Source of the DNA: Candidatus Eisenbacteria bacterium
GTDB taxonomy: Bacteria; Eisenbacteria; RBG-16-71-46; CAIMUX01; JAHJDP01
DNA: 64,000 bases
NCBI GenBank assembly: GCA_018831195.1
Contig: JAHJDP010000097.1
Span: 1 to 64,000, forward strand
Reading direction: 5' to 3'
Part shown: in pieces, positions 11,202 through 18,549 of the stretch
How positions within the stretch are numbered: the first letter of the stretch is position 1
Layout: each line of letters begins with the position of its first letter
Translations under genes and position numbers: made by a program
Notes under the pieces: generated by a model
The model's database searches: none
Seen by the model: only the letters and a program-made list of their open reading frames with translations
What the model was told of the DNA's origin: nothing

Positions 11202-11663
11202 CTACTCCGAGGACGTTCTCTTTGGACGCACAACCATTTGAATGGATGAGGCGGGGAAAAAAGGCAGAGAGACAATTCTCTCTTCATCGAAATGAAACTC
11301 CTGATCCTCAATCACCAGTATAAATTCCGGTTCGTTGACCTCTCTACGTTCCGTTTGCGAGGAATCTGAACCGACCTCACCACGGATAAGAACGGCCACG
11401 GCGCCTTGTCCCGAAGCCTTCGGGAAAATCCTAACGAGATAGCTCCCATCCTCGGAAGCCAGTGAAAGAACCGGCGAATCAGTTGGAAAATAATTTTTCC
11501 CTTTCTCGGGTGAATCGGCCGCCAGGGAGAACGGTATTATCTGCTCTGGAGGCTTCAGAACATCAGCCTCCGCAATTCCCCAGGAGATGGGTTTCAGATC
11601 GATTTTCTGCTCCACCAATCGGTTGGCTATGATCTCCACATGATTTTCTCGCCGGCTGTTCAC
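11202..11663 (-). CDS. Unknown soluble protein, partner of the Lon-like membrane protein
   Basis: 153 residues starting with GTG at 11663, directly after AAGGAGGAG and 10 nt after the stop of the Lon-like gene, so the two are one transcription unit. The middle is strand-rich (SLASEDGSYLVRIFP, then GAVAVLIRGEV), ending EFILVIEDQEFHFDEE. No signal peptide or transmembrane segment. It may be a beta-sandwich that works with the protease, but I recognise no family and the role is open. Confidence 0.7.
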   Translation of the reverse strand: MNSRRENHVEIIANRLVEQKIDLKPISWGIAEADVLKPPEQIIPFSLAADSPEKGKNYFPTDSPVLSLASEDGSYLVRIFPKASGQGAVAVLIRGEVGSDSSQTERREVNEPEFILVIEDQEFHFDEERIVSLPFFPASSIQMVVRPKRTSSE

Positions 11664-11673
11664 GACTCCTCCT

Positions 11674-13860
11674 TCATTTCCCGGAATACTCCTCGATTCC
11701 AACCCACCCGTTCGGTGTCAAGATCATCACTTCCTCCGCCAATCGCAATTCTTCCGCCTGGATTTCCTCAAGTGTAATATCCGGATTATATTTTTCCCGG
11801 ATGGCGGCCCGGCCCGCATCGCTAAAATGAACCCATTTCAATTTCGGGCTCTTCAATTCTGAGAAATCAAAACTAAATAGAATTCTATCAGATCCATCCA
11901 CACCCGAGCAGGATATATTCGCGCAGGCGTGATCTTCCATGAACGCCACCCTACAGTGTGTTCTCTCGGCTGAATCAAAGCTTGTTTTTGCGAAACTCAG
12001 AGCAGTCAGAATACCCTTTTGCAGGCATTCAGGATCCATCATTGATTGCGCTTCGGTCACATCTGCGCTGACGTGAGACTTCATTTTATCAAGATTCCCG
12101 AAATTTTCCTCTGAGAGAACAAGGTACAGTCCTCTTCCGGTCGGATTGTTTGTTCCAACGATGGCATACTCATTGACTCCATCACTATTTAAATCGATTC
12201 GATGGATAGCATCCATATGACCGGCATTTTCAAATTGCGCTATGAGTTTTCCATTACTGCTATCAATGATATCCAGAAGACTAAATGATTGACGCATGGA
12301 TCTCCGCAAGGCCAGGATTCCCTTCGTCATCTCTCCAATCTGAACGGGACCGTAGATGCGCCACCAGTTCATATCCTCCCGTATCACCCCCCCCTCGAGG
12401 TCAAGATCCCGTGAGGATGCTTGCCAGATCCGATTTCCTTTCCTATCAAATATAGTGATCAAATCCGTCCGATTTACGCCACTCCCATGTAAAACCATAA
12501 TCTCATTCAAACCATCCCCGTCCAGATCCCAAACATTGGATTTGCTGTGCCAGTGTTCGAGACCGTAATCTTGATGAAGAGGAGGTGAAGGGAGCTTCAA
12601 TTTCATCGTTATCCAACCATGGCTATTTCGAACAACAATATCATTTCCCTCCCACACTGCGCTGTCCGGCTTATTTTGAGTGCTTAAAAGAATAAAAATC
12701 CAAAGAGCGATGAGGAGGATTGTGGATATGACGGATGTTACCATCCGCGAACGGCTGTAGGTGAACCAAGCCGTGATGGTGCGCGCCCCCTCAAGCAGGC
12801 CTCGACTTCGCCTTGCAAGAACCTCACCATACTCAACCTCTCTCGCCGGACCCAAGATGTCCCTGAGATCGTCAACACCTCGGATTTCCAATTGCCGTTT
12901 CGGGTACCTCTCACTAAGGGATGCCACCTCTTTTTTAAACATTTCCTTTTGTTGTCCAGGGACCCATAAGGTTTCTACATTGGAGAAAAAGCAGGCCCTG
13001 GCCTTGGGCTTCAATGTCGAGGCCTCAACCGGGGTGACGCGGTAACGATCCATGACACCCGTTGCGGCGGTTCTTCTATCGAGTTCGCAGATATGCCATC
13101 CCGGCGCCAGAGATTGCCATCCCGAAATGGCCGCAATGGCAAAAGGCAAACCAGCCGACCGGCCGACCAGAGTCGCCCCGGGCTGATCCCACCCCGTACC
13201 AAACCAGGTATGGGTCAGGTGCGGACCTCCCTTGGGTCGGAAGGGGTGCATTCTTTCCAAGACAGATAGAAAAGCCTCCTTCGCCTCGGGGCTTGTTGCC
13301 CCATCGACGTGGAGAATGGGTTTGGGTGATCGCCTAGAGACTGAATCTACTTGTACAGTAAACCGAAGCAGTTGCCCGCAGGACAATCCTGCAAAATCGG
13401 GGTGGGAAATCCTCATGTCCGGCACCTCGGCAACTACAGGCACAAATATCTCCACTGATTGCCGGGAGATGGGTTCTGATGACCCTTGGATCGCTCTCCC
13501 TGAAAGGAGATCATCTGTCTTTCGTTGCGCCTTGCCGACCGCTTCCAGGGCCGAATTTCCAGCTTCCCTCCAATCCTCACTCCCTGGAATATTCGGAACT
13601 TTAAACTCTAGGCATCTCTGTAAAGAGGTATGGATAACTTCTAATTCATCGGGGGAAAGCCCTTCCAATGGACATTTATTTATAAGGCCGGCGAGTTGAT
13701 ATGCTATTTTGAAACCATACCCTACCCACCCTTCCAACCCATGTGACAGTGCCAATTCCAGAAATCGAATTTCAAGTTTTATTTGAAGAAGCGGCGGCAG
13801 CCCCAGCACGAGGAGCCGTTGAAGTTCATCATAGAGATGATGTAGTTCAAGCGGTTTCAT
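11674..13860 (-). CDS. Membrane protein with cytoplasmic Lon-like (S16) protease domain and extracytoplasmic FG-GAP-like domain
   Basis: 728 residues. Residues 1-130 are helical and unknown. About 165-340 resembles the Lon proteolytic domain: GATLVGRSAGLPFA holds Ser235 where Lon has its catalytic Ser in GPSAG, and 49 residues on TLKPK (Lys284) stands where Lon has GGLKEK. The intervening ATGVMD...VTPVEA matches Lon's TGE...VLPVGG, and the following ETLWVP matches Lon's strand before the Asn/Asp turn. There is no AAA+ ATPase. One transmembrane helix (about 373-393) follows. Beyond it lie two calcium-type Asp motifs of the FG-GAP/VCBS kind, DLDGDGLNE (445-453) and DLNSDGVNE (556-564), and a tail of about 150 residues. 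The domain reading is inference from motifs. The start has no strong ribosome site and may be coupled to a short upstream frame. Function unknown; a signal-transducing protease is possible. Confidence 0.65.
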   Translation of the reverse strand: MKPLELHHLYDELQRLLVLGLPPLLQIKLEIRFLELALSHGLEGWVGYGFKIAYQLAGLINKCPLEGLSPDELEVIHTSLQRCLEFKVPNIPGSEDWREAGNSALEAVGKAQRKTDDLLSGRAIQGSSEPISRQSVEIFVPVVAEVPDMRISHPDFAGLSCGQLLRFTVQVDSVSRRSPKPILHVDGATSPEAKEAFLSVLERMHPFRPKGGPHLTHTWFGTGWDQPGATLVGRSAGLPFAIAAISGWQSLAPGWHICELDRRTAATGVMDRYRVTPVEASTLKPKARACFFSNVETLWVPGQQKEMFKKEVASLSERYPKRQLEIRGVDDLRDILGPAREVEYGEVLARRSRGLLEGARTITAWFTYSRSRMVTSVISTILLIALWIFILLSTQNKPDSAVWEGNDIVVRNSHGWITMKLKLPSPPLHQDYGLEHWHSKSNVWDLDGDGLNEIMVLHGSGVNRTDLITIFDRKGNRIWQASSRDLDLEGGVIREDMNWWRIYGPVQIGEMTKGILALRRSMRQSFSLLDIIDSSNGKLIAQFENAGHMDAIHRIDLNSDGVNEYAIVGTNNPTGRGLYLVLSEENFGNLDKMKSHVSADVTEAQSMMDPECLQKGILTALSFAKTSFDSAERTHCRVAFMEDHACANISCSGVDGSDRILFSFDFSELKSPKLKWVHFSDAGRAAIREKYNPDITLEEIQAEELRLAEEVMILTPNGWVGIEEYSGK

Positions 13861-15315: not shown

Positions 15316-16119
15316 TTACGGCGCCGGTTTGTAATAGGTAAGCGCTTCCGGCATCCATTTCTGGAGCTGTTCGACCCGCGTTCCATGACTCGGATGGGTG
15401 CTGAGCCATTCAGGCGGCGCCGAACCGCCGGCGCTTTTCCCCATCCGCTCCCAGAATCGGATCGATTCCCGCGGGTCATATCCGGCCTTGGCCATATAGA
15501 CAAGGCCGATATGATCCGCTTCGCTCTCCTGCGCGCGGCTGAAGGGCAGAAGAATTCCGACCTGTCCACCGATCCCATAAGCTGCCAGCACCACGCTGCG
15601 CGTCGTCTCGCTCTTTTCATTCAGGAGCGCTTCAAGACCCATCCCGCCGATTTGAAAGGCGAGATCATCGGTCATTCTCTCTCCGCCGTGCCGGGCGATG
15701 GCGTGGGCAATCTCATGGGCCATGACGGTCGCCAATCCGGCTTCGTTTTCAGCAACGGGCAGAATCCCGGTATAGATCGCCACCTTCCCGCCCGGAAGGC
15801 AAAAGGCGTTGACCGTAGCTTCATCACGAATCAGGCTGAATTCCCATTCATATCCGGGGCGGTCGGAGGCGGCGGCGATCTTCCTGCCGACACGCCGGAC
15901 CATTTCAAATTCGGCGCCGGATTTCACAATCTCCGACTCCGAGAGGACTTGTTGGTAGCTCTCGAGGCCGAGGGCCAGCTCCTGGCTCTCCGGAATAAGA
16001 TTTAAACTCCGGCGCCCGGTGACCGGCACGGTGGCGCACCCGGCGATCATGAACATAAGAACGATGAGAGCAACCCAGTGGAGATTGTATAAAGTACGAA
16101 GTTGGTTTTCTCTCTTCAT
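15316..16119 (-). CDS. M48-family zinc metalloprotease lipoprotein (BepA/LoiP-like)
   Basis: 267 residues. The signal peptide ends in the lipobox IAGC (Cys28), which predicts a lipid-anchored periplasmic protease. HEIAH at 135-139 gives two zinc histidines and the catalytic Glu; the third ligand is the Glu of the downstream ESEAD motif. Such enzymes degrade misfolded outer-membrane proteins. It lacks the TPR domain of BepA, so it is the short LoiP/YcaL type. The ATG at 16119 follows GGGAGGGGAAGG; a longer reading has no site. It lies 34 nt after the S8 protease gene on the same strand, probably one operon. Confidence 0.88.
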   Translation of the reverse strand: MKRENQLRTLYNLHWVALIVLMFMIAGCATVPVTGRRSLNLIPESQELALGLESYQQVLSESEIVKSGAEFEMVRRVGRKIAAASDRPGYEWEFSLIRDEATVNAFCLPGGKVAIYTGILPVAENEAGLATVMAHEIAHAIARHGGERMTDDLAFQIGGMGLEALLNEKSETTRSVVLAAYGIGGQVGILLPFSRAQESEADHIGLVYMAKAGYDPRESIRFWERMGKSAGGSAPPEWLSTHPSHGTRVEQLQKWMPEALTYYKPAP

Positions 16120-16153
16120 GGACCTTCCCCTCCCTGGGAACAGTCTCGGCCTT

Positions 16154-18235
16154 CTAACGCAAGCGCACCCAGCGCTCCTGGGCGACAAGATCGCGCCCGC
16201 TCAAAAGACGGATCCAATAAATTCCCGCCGCCACGGCCCGGCCGCGGTCGTCGACGCCGTCCCATGTCCAGGAGGAGCCGGTGAGGGCGCGGGATAGAAT
16301 CCGCCGTCCCGTCGGCGCGATAATCACTACATGATAGGCGTCGCGAGCGAGGCCGTCATCGGCCAAATGCAGTTTCAATCCGCCGGATGAGGGATTCGGC
16401 CAAATCTGCAGCCGCGATGCCGATCCCGCGACGGGATCCGCAACGCCGGATCCGGTGGGCATTGTGAAAGTCCAGGTTTCGCGGCTCTTGCGGGAGTGTG
16501 ATTCTGCATCCACCGCGAAGACCTTCCAATTGTAGGTTACGCCGGGTATCAGAATATGATGAACGACGAGAAATGTATCGGCGGGAACCTCTTGTACCAT
16601 CGGAAGATCAAATGGAGAGGCGGTCACATCCTGTATCACGACGCGGTAGGTCGGCGGCACACCCGAATCGAGATCTTCCGTCGATTCCCAGACAAGGGTC
16701 ACGGGCAGCTCCGGCTCCTCGGAATCTCCGGGTGAAACGAGCGAAAAGGGCAGCGGATAAATGGGCGTCTCTGAGAAGATCGCCGCATAAACATCCGGAA
16801 TGCCGGCACCATAATCATTGTCGGGAAAGGCCGAGTTATCGCCCGAGGCTTTGAGCGCTTGAATCACGGCGTAGGGATCCCACTCGGGATGCGCTTCCAG
16901 CACCAGGGCGCAGGCGCCGGCGATGATCGGCGCTGAAAAAGAGGTCCCGTTCCCATCCCCGTAGTCTGTGTCGCTCCAGGCTCTGGCGACAGCGGCCTTC
17001 CAGCCCCGCGCGCAAAGCTCGGGTTTGATCCGGTTGTCATAGGTCGGTCCGCGGCTGCTGAAGTTTTGTAGAACTCCGGCGCTGTCGACCGCTCCGCAGG
17101 AGAGAATCGTGTCGGCATCCGCCGGCACGCGGAGGGTCCCCGGATCCGGCCCATAATTCCCGACGGAGTTGACACAGAGGATCCCCTTGGCCGCGGCGAT
17201 ATCAACCGCCCGCGTAATGACGGCGGTATTGCCGTCGAGGTCCTCATACGTATAGCCTGTTAAATCGTCAAAGGTCAGATAGGTCAGTGAAGCCGAGGTC
17301 AGCCAAACACCCAAGGTGTCGGCCCACTCAAGGGCGGCGACATAGTTGTCTTCTTCCACGGGCAGCTCGCTGCGGGTGTCCTCGGTCTTGGCCAATACAA
17401 ATGAGGCGCCGTAAGCGGGGCCGATCACATGTCCCGGGGAGTAGCCCCCGGCCGCGCTCCAGGTGCCCGTCCCATGGAATTGCGCATTTTCTTCATCTTC
17501 AGCCTCGTTTTGTACAATGCTGTCGCCATAAACATAATCATACTGCGCGACCAGATCGAGCGCGGCAAAGGCCTCATGATCGGTACGAAATCCGGTATCC
17601 AGCATCATCATAAGGACATGATCGCCGGTGATTCCCAGCGCATGCAGAGGTAGTACATTAATCTGATCCAGCTGCCAATAAGAAGGCCCATAATCCAAAG
17701 AGCGGCCCGCTTTCGGCGCGGCCTCCCGCCCCATATCCCCCGGATCCGATGACACACTCTCCGCCGGATCGACACCGCCCCGCGCCACAGGGATCACCTC
17801 TTTTACAAAAGGCAGCTCGATAACGCGGCGCAGGGTTTCGACACTCATGACGAAGCTGCCGCCGTTCAGCCAGCGGGTCCGGTGCCTGAGAATGCCGCCC
17901 AACTCAATGACAGCGTCGATATAGGAGGAACAGACCGGCAGATCCCGCTCATCGACAAGTTCCACATTCCTGACCCGGGACCGGCGGGCCAAAACATCAT
18001 CCGACAACTTATGCTTTGCGGATTGGAGGGCGGCGGCCTGTTGGGAAGATTCCAGCCCTCTATCGGAGAAAAGGACCCAGACCGTCCATTCCCGGCCGGC
18101 GCGGTCCTCGGATAGGGATCGGCTCAGGGTCGGGTGAATGGCGGTCCCAGCGGCCGGGCCGGCGCTGGAGAGCAGGATGAAGACACAAAAGAGAGCTGTC
18201 GCGACTGCTGGTAATCCCTTCTGAGACAACACCAT
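16154..18235 (-). CDS. Secreted S8 (subtilisin-like) serine protease with C-terminal FlgD-like sorting domain
   Basis: 693 residues. A signal peptide (1-30) is followed by a propeptide-like region to about 180. The S8 catalytic domain has Asp213 (MLDTGF), His254 (FHGTGTWSA), oxyanion Asn360 (SVGNYG) and Ser432 (NGTSFSAP). The His motif is HGTGTWSAAG, not the usual HGTHVAG. A fibronectin-like region (about 510-600) precedes a C-terminal domain that starts LQIWPNPSSGG and ends in GIYWIRLLSG, the FlgD-like/T9SS-type pattern of FCB bacteria. The ATG at 18235 follows AAAGGAA; an ATG at 18259 is possible. Likely cotranscribed with the M48 protease. Confidence 0.9.
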   Translation of the reverse strand: MVLSQKGLPAVATALFCVFILLSSAGPAAGTAIHPTLSRSLSEDRAGREWTVWVLFSDRGLESSQQAAALQSAKHKLSDDVLARRSRVRNVELVDERDLPVCSSYIDAVIELGGILRHRTRWLNGGSFVMSVETLRRVIELPFVKEVIPVARGGVDPAESVSSDPGDMGREAAPKAGRSLDYGPSYWQLDQINVLPLHALGITGDHVLMMMLDTGFRTDHEAFAALDLVAQYDYVYGDSIVQNEAEDEENAQFHGTGTWSAAGGYSPGHVIGPAYGASFVLAKTEDTRSELPVEEDNYVAALEWADTLGVWLTSASLTYLTFDDLTGYTYEDLDGNTAVITRAVDIAAAKGILCVNSVGNYGPDPGTLRVPADADTILSCGAVDSAGVLQNFSSRGPTYDNRIKPELCARGWKAAVARAWSDTDYGDGNGTSFSAPIIAGACALVLEAHPEWDPYAVIQALKASGDNSAFPDNDYGAGIPDVYAAIFSETPIYPLPFSLVSPGDSEEPELPVTLVWESTEDLDSGVPPTYRVVIQDVTASPFDLPMVQEVPADTFLVVHHILIPGVTYNWKVFAVDAESHSRKSRETWTFTMPTGSGVADPVAGSASRLQIWPNPSSGGLKLHLADDGLARDAYHVVIIAPTGRRILSRALTGSSWTWDGVDDRGRAVAAGIYWIRLLSGRDLVAQERWVRLR

Positions 18236-18549
18236 CCGGCGTTCCTTTCTGAGGTCCATCCGCCCTTTGACACCCGCGCGTTGACACCTCCATCAAAGAT
18301 CGGCGGCAGACCGTTGAGTGGATACAGACTGTTTCTATTATAGGGCAAATCCATCGAAAACTCACCTCCGAACGAAGAATAAAAAGTCGATGGAACCCCT
18401 GGCGTCGGCGAACCGTATCTATTGGAGAACGCGGGGTTGGGAGACTTTAAATTGAATGAGATGCCGGTGCGGAACGTATAAAGAGAAGTTCAGATAGGAC
18501 GTCAGGCCCGGTTTTAATCGAATGTCGAGGGGCTCAACGGGGAGGATCC
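18236..18549. other. Divergent intergenic region between S8 protease and RND operon
   Basis: About 310 bases without a gene. A possible rightward promoter, TTGAGT (18314-18319), 16 bp, TATTAT (18336-18341), would start RNA about 200 nt before the adaptor gene. GGGGAGG (about 18539-18545) is the ribosome site of that gene. No repeat or operator stands out. Confidence 0.35.

Follow-up and report, generated by a model that had tools for sequence, protein, structure and literature searches.

Which function should be assigned to a protein that joins a Lon-like protease domain, free of any ATPase, to FG-GAP-like motifs through a single membrane helix, and that is encoded next to a small partner gene? 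Such a pair, here called gene A and gene B, resides on the reverse strand of the window, by which we mean the whole 64,000-nucleotide stretch of Candidatus Eisenbacteria DNA that was analyzed; its host genome comprises 5.24 Mb and is 99% complete. A first-pass annotation had suggested a transmembrane signaling or defense protease. We consider it reasonably probable that gene A encodes a transmembrane Lon-like protease which is gated by a ligand and has an anti-sigma factor as its substrate.

Gene A (11,674–13,860) starts with ATG and encodes 728 residues. The open reading frame and an alignment with 20 relatives outline an N-terminal helical region, a Lon-like protease domain, a membrane helix and an FG-GAP-like outer domain, in this order. 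The AlphaFold2 model of the protein was built from seven sequences and has a mean pLDDT of 66.9, with values mostly of 60–90 in the domain blocks. Its N-terminal region (residues 1–122; 13,495–13,860) is all-helical, comprising five helices with a pLDDT of about 72–89, and is also found in the relatives but matches no known family.

Lon-like protease domain and catalytic dyad

By itself, the gene A protein scores below the Pfam Lon_C cut-off, and neither Pfam nor phmmer gives a significant Lon match. Since the single sequence is too diverged for these searches, the homology to Lon was established through the relatives. Three aligned domains from the order of the window sufficed to match PDB entries for the Lon protease domain (E = 0.0012), and a profile of seven domains reached them at E = 2.2e-9, with the serine and the lysine aligned with those of Lon. 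The homology of gene A to the Lon protease domain is beyond chance. Among the relatives, one (L032) passes the Lon_C cut-off (26 versus 21.1 bits). The domain covers residues 133–339 (12,844–13,464), for which a Foldseek search with the model retrieved the protease domain of human LONP1 with a TM-score of 0.71 over the domain length. The Lon-like domain of the first-pass annotation is thus borne out by the profile as well as by the predicted structure. Elsewhere in the host genome, a second and weaker Lon_C match lies in an open frame of 817 residues (L016; G000:C95:15106-15417), and C107 carries a stronger Lon_C match than C95.

The catalytic residues were located by aligning the gene A protein with its 20 relatives; the 21 proteins come from 16 genomes. 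Ser235 (13,156–13,158), sitting in a GRSAG motif, is a serine in all 21 proteins, and Lys286 (13,003–13,005), which aligns with the catalytic lysine of Lon, is a lysine in all 21. Even at the lowest full-length identity to the gene A protein, about 16%, the dyad is kept. The dyad had originally been placed at Ser235 and Lys284, which was correct for the serine but two positions off for the lysine: the column of Lys284 holds a lysine in only two of the 21 proteins. Lys284 was therefore rejected as the catalytic residue, and the conservation of the pair holds once the lysine is moved to position 286.

None of the 21 members contains a Walker A motif, and Pfam gives no AAA+ family match for the gene A protein, in agreement with the motor having been annotated as absent. 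The gene A family has the fold and the Ser/Lys dyad in common with LonA and LonB (MEROPS S16). Whereas these carry an AAA+ module within the chain, the gene A family has neither AAA+ motor nor Walker A and differs further in being membrane-anchored, with the layout of a single-helix receptor.

Many proteins have Lon-like folds without performing proteolysis. The domain could accordingly be a non-catalytic binding module that signals by sequestering the anti-sigma factor through a change of conformation, as the low overall identity to Lon and the lack of a significant Lon match for the gene A protein alone might suggest. We regard this as improbable because serine and lysine occupy the catalytic positions in 21 of 21 proteins while nearby residues, including Lys284, vary, and we favor a catalytically active protease.

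Membrane helix and shared outer domain

A single membrane helix (residues 374–392; 12,685–12,741), with a hydropathy peak of 2.66, follows the Lon-like domain as first annotated, and every aligned member has one strong hydrophobic segment after this domain. Three lysine or arginine residues precede the helix of gene A and one follows it; in nearly all aligned members, the positive charges before the helix outnumber those after it. According to the positive-inside rule, the excess of basic residues ahead of the helix predicts an N-in orientation with the protease side in the cytoplasm.

The remaining residues 397–728 (11,677–12,672) are predicted to form an extracytoplasmic, β-rich FG-GAP-like domain. 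The model has low to moderate confidence here, and the gene A protein itself scores 12.9 bits against the FG-GAP family of Pfam, below the cut-off. FG-GAP models score in relatives, however, and exceed the cut-off in L072, supporting the FG-GAP-like character proposed earlier. The two Dx[DN]xDGxNE motifs that had been noted are both present, DLDGDGLNE at residues 445–453 (12,502–12,528) and DLNSDGVNE at residues 556–564 (12,169–12,195), but only the second is conserved in the family. Its D-x3-DG residues D556, D560, and G561 are invariant in seven of seven aligned proteins, whereas the first acidic motif varies. In one relative (L069:5721-5723, genome G283), an in-frame stop interrupts the outer-domain region of the protease gene, indicating either a sequencing error or a pseudogene.

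An HMM of the outer domain of the protease family also matched the outer part of two membrane-spanning Ser/Thr kinases found in the same order (E = 3.4e-34 and 3.1e-7) and gave no match against reversed sequences. Both kinases (L014:8782-11022 and L015:12725-14992) are encoded directly beside a PF07638 ECF sigma gene. Judging from these sequences, it looks as if kinase and protease outputs had been exchanged behind one shared sensor.

Partner genes and sigma factor neighborhood

The 20 relatives of gene A are distributed over several phyla. A pattern search of genome contigs returned only three Eisenbacteria loci; the wider spread comes from a profile search of 385 genomes, in which weaker matches (about E = 1e-14 upwards) were mostly taken as ordinary AAA+ Lon proteases and only individually checked matches were counted as family members. 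Outside the phylum of the window, members occur in the genomes G145/G283/G389/G390, G218, and G333/G195/G385, each group representing a small phylum of its own (7, 3, and 3 genomes in the search), and in G343. No relative was found in IMG/VR with the patterns used or on plasmids in PLSDB, and we dismissed a mobile or viral origin on this basis. The genomes of the small phylum with G333, G385, and G195 (L079, L088–L091) each carry several diverged protease copies, including a tandem pair of protease genes in L091; where sequence is available, these copies mostly have no sigma or anti-sigma neighbors.

A soluble anti-sigma-type gene with an H-x3-C-x2-C finger adjoins 12 members (L012, L013, L032, L034, L035, L069, L070, L072, L073, L075, L092, and L093). 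The partners are putative anti-sigma factors as judged by this motif and their context; the best zf-HC2 score in Pfam is 21.9 bits against a cut-off of 22.2 bits (L013), and the match is weak or absent in the other partners. Six of the 12 loci (L013, L032, L034, L069, L072, and L075) hold complete sets of an ECF sigma factor, a finger-bearing anti-sigma-type protein and the protease, in a convergent arrangement in the case of L034. Sigma family cut-offs are passed in L032, L072, and L075; the sigma assignment is weak in L013, and those in L034 and L069 come from sequence reading and alignment. The finger-bearing gene of L012, L035, L070, L073, L092, and L093 is found without a recognizable sigma gene. 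Five members have no finger-bearing neighbor in the available sequence, four of them from one small phylum and the fifth from G028, and a partner-like fragment of G008 lies on another contig. As the gene order varies among the loci, simple inheritance of an old neighborhood is less likely. The anti-sigma-type and ECF sigma neighbors, together with the outer domain common to sigma-linked kinases, support the earlier suggestion of a transmembrane signaling protease.

Operons resembling that of the window conserve, at the position of the sigma gene, another gene (gene X) for a helical protein of 390–500 residues belonging to no known family (L012:11061-12248, L070:8602-9939, L092:4184-5677, and L093:7146-8312); a gene at L073:6145-7245 is placed similarly. 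The possibility that gene X is a divergent sigma factor was unsupported by Pfam, by the PDB profile, by hhalign comparison with six sigma factors and by a fold search of its model. Gene X thus appears to be a helical protein without recognizable sigma identity by sequence, profile, or fold.

In the window, gene B (11,202–11,663) encodes a partner of 153 residues without the H-x3-C-x2-C finger. Its GTG start codon at 11,663 lies about 10 bases past the stop codon of gene A, and its Shine-Dalgarno sequence (AGGAGGAG; 11,666–11,673) is located directly 3′ of that codon. Because this strong Shine-Dalgarno (AAGGAGGAG) abuts the gene A stop, the two genes are probably translationally coupled. We built an HMM of the partner family from the partners of four relatives, leaving out the window, with 203 positions. 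It matched gene B at E = 3e-21 over model positions 103–203 only. By this match, gene B represents the C-terminal domain of the anti-sigma-type partners and lacks their finger. The small partner gene noted as unknown in the first-pass annotation is indeed present and can now be placed in a family; the finger-bearing partners stand beside the 12 relatives, while the 153-residue protein of the window corresponds to their C-terminal domain alone.

The protease occurs in 7 of the 47 genomes of the window's phylum and the partner family in 6 of the 47, all six among the seven with the protease. Were the genomes independent, an assumption that fails for related ones, the chance of such an overlap would be about 6.5e-7. 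Gene B is the sole copy of the partner family in its genome, and neither a finger-bearing paralogue nor gene X was found there; no ECF sigma gene is adjacent to the pair. Lacking both the finger and a neighboring sigma gene, the window locus looks like a reduced form that retains the protease and the C-terminal domain of the partner. The survival of precisely this domain suggests that it is the part recognized by the protease, and it is presumably either docked on or cut by it.

The same observations could also mean that sigma control has been lost from the window pair. Without its finger, the partner might then act as an adaptor, an inhibitor, or an alternative substrate of a protease directed at another cytoplasmic target, or the locus might be a decaying remnant. 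The loss of the finger, the single partner copy in a 99% complete genome without an adjacent sigma gene or gene X, and the occurrence of stand-alone protease members in another phylum would fit this explanation. Nevertheless, we find it rather unlikely: an ECF sigma factor could act in trans from another part of the genome, and plain decay agrees poorly with a full-length gene A, an intact dyad and a partner domain kept under tight coupling.

Proposed mechanism and comparison with known systems

Our analysis establishes the Lon homology, the invariant dyad, the one membrane helix, the conserved neighborhood, and the homology of the partner to an anti-sigma-type family; the topology, the cleavage, its substrate, the ligand, and any sigma output in the window organism are what we infer. 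The outer FG-GAP-like domain would bind an extracytoplasmic ligand or report the state of the surface, and the membrane helix would transmit the change to the Ser235/Lys286 domain in the cytoplasm, probably through a shift in the way that this domain oligomerizes. Once active, the domain would cleave, independently of ATP, the soluble anti-sigma factor encoded with it, at a site within or close to the C-terminal domain of that factor, thereby freeing the ECF sigma factor and changing transcription. For the window copy, we envisage a reduced circuit, in which the C-terminal domain is all that is left of the partner and the adjacent genes include none for a sigma factor. The steps from ligand through cleavage to sigma release form part of this proposal.

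Across the membrane, ECF sigma factors are known to be controlled either through a proteolytic cascade acting on membrane-bound anti-sigma factors or through kinases in the membrane. The RseA/DegS/RseP system resembles the gene A family in that an extracytoplasmic signal leads to anti-sigma proteolysis, as we propose here. However, RseA spans the membrane and is cut outside as well as within it, whereas in the gene A family it is the protease that crosses the membrane and the anti-sigma factor appears soluble, so that a single step would be enough. Systems that pair an ECF sigma factor with a membrane Hanks kinase (ECF43-type, EcfP/PknT, EcfK/PknS) likewise have a one-helix membrane receptor beside an ECF sigma gene. 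Their inner domain is a kinase acting on the sigma factor, in contrast to the protease proposed to act on the anti-sigma factor in the gene A family. If the proposal is correct, one protein combining an outer sensor with cleavage of the anti-sigma factor inside the cell would represent a third and simpler type of ECF wiring, and kinase and protease outputs would be swappable behind one sensor.

As modes of ECF regulation, two reviews (PMC8103513, PMC8999054) name anti-sigma factors, both membrane-bound and soluble, along with kinases, extensions and transcriptional control, and their passages on this subject make no mention of a Lon-like membrane protease. Our literature search for a membrane Lon-like/sigma system, from whose reach most subscription journals and preprints were excluded, matched only Calp. 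In this system, a ligand on the sensor causes the Lon-like protease CalpL to oligomerize and to cut the anti-sigma factor CalpT, thereby freeing the ECF sigma factor CalpS, which is left with a fragment whose degradation is presumed (PMC11417357, PMC12751052). Six relatives of gene A share with CalpL/CalpT/CalpS a sensor-fused, ATP-independent Lon-like protease encoded together with an anti-sigma-type protein and an ECF sigma factor; this likeness does not extend to the window locus, where only the C-terminal domain of the partner is found. The Calp sensor is an intracellular SAVED domain, whereas the sensor of the gene A family is FG-GAP-like and predicted to lie outside the cytoplasm, beyond a membrane helix. 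The finger-bearing partners also differ in their make from the Calp anti-sigma factor, and Calp is associated with type III CRISPR, while no CRISPR genes occur here. Pfam gave no SAVED match in gene A, and the Lon-domain profile reached no chain labeled CalpL in the PDB. By the defining features tested (SAVED and type III CRISPR), the gene A family is not a member of Calp; we regard Calp as its closest functional precedent. Calp, an intracellular CRISPR effector, is the only described Lon/anti-sigma/sigma circuit that we found; the Lon/anti-sigma switch would, if our proposal holds, also serve sensing of the outside. We lean, by a small measure, towards a broader view of a widespread class of one-component transmembrane receptors, so far undescribed, whose ATP-free Lon-like output would cleave a soluble anti-sigma factor in one step and whose outer sensors would be interchangeable with those of sigma-linked kinases.

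That CalpL is a type III CRISPR effector (PMC11417357) would also be a precedent for an antiviral role, the defense protease of the first-pass annotation. We consider such a role very improbable here. PADLOC gives no match for the window pair, no SAVED, CRISPR, Cas10, or other defense gene occurs among the surrounding ORFs, no match was found on plasmids or, with the patterns used, in viral contigs, and the sensor is predicted to lie outside the cell. The neighborhood instead consists of metabolic and secreted-protein genes. A spermidine synthase and a PLP enzyme of Cys/Met metabolism are encoded on one side of the pair; the other side holds genes for a lipoprotein-like protein that carries CBM96, for an M48-like peptidase and for a subtilase.

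Of these neighbors, the ORF of the M48-like peptidase (15,316–16,188, reverse strand) overlaps the end of the ORF of the secreted subtilase (16,154–18,259, reverse strand), and both peptidases read as exported.
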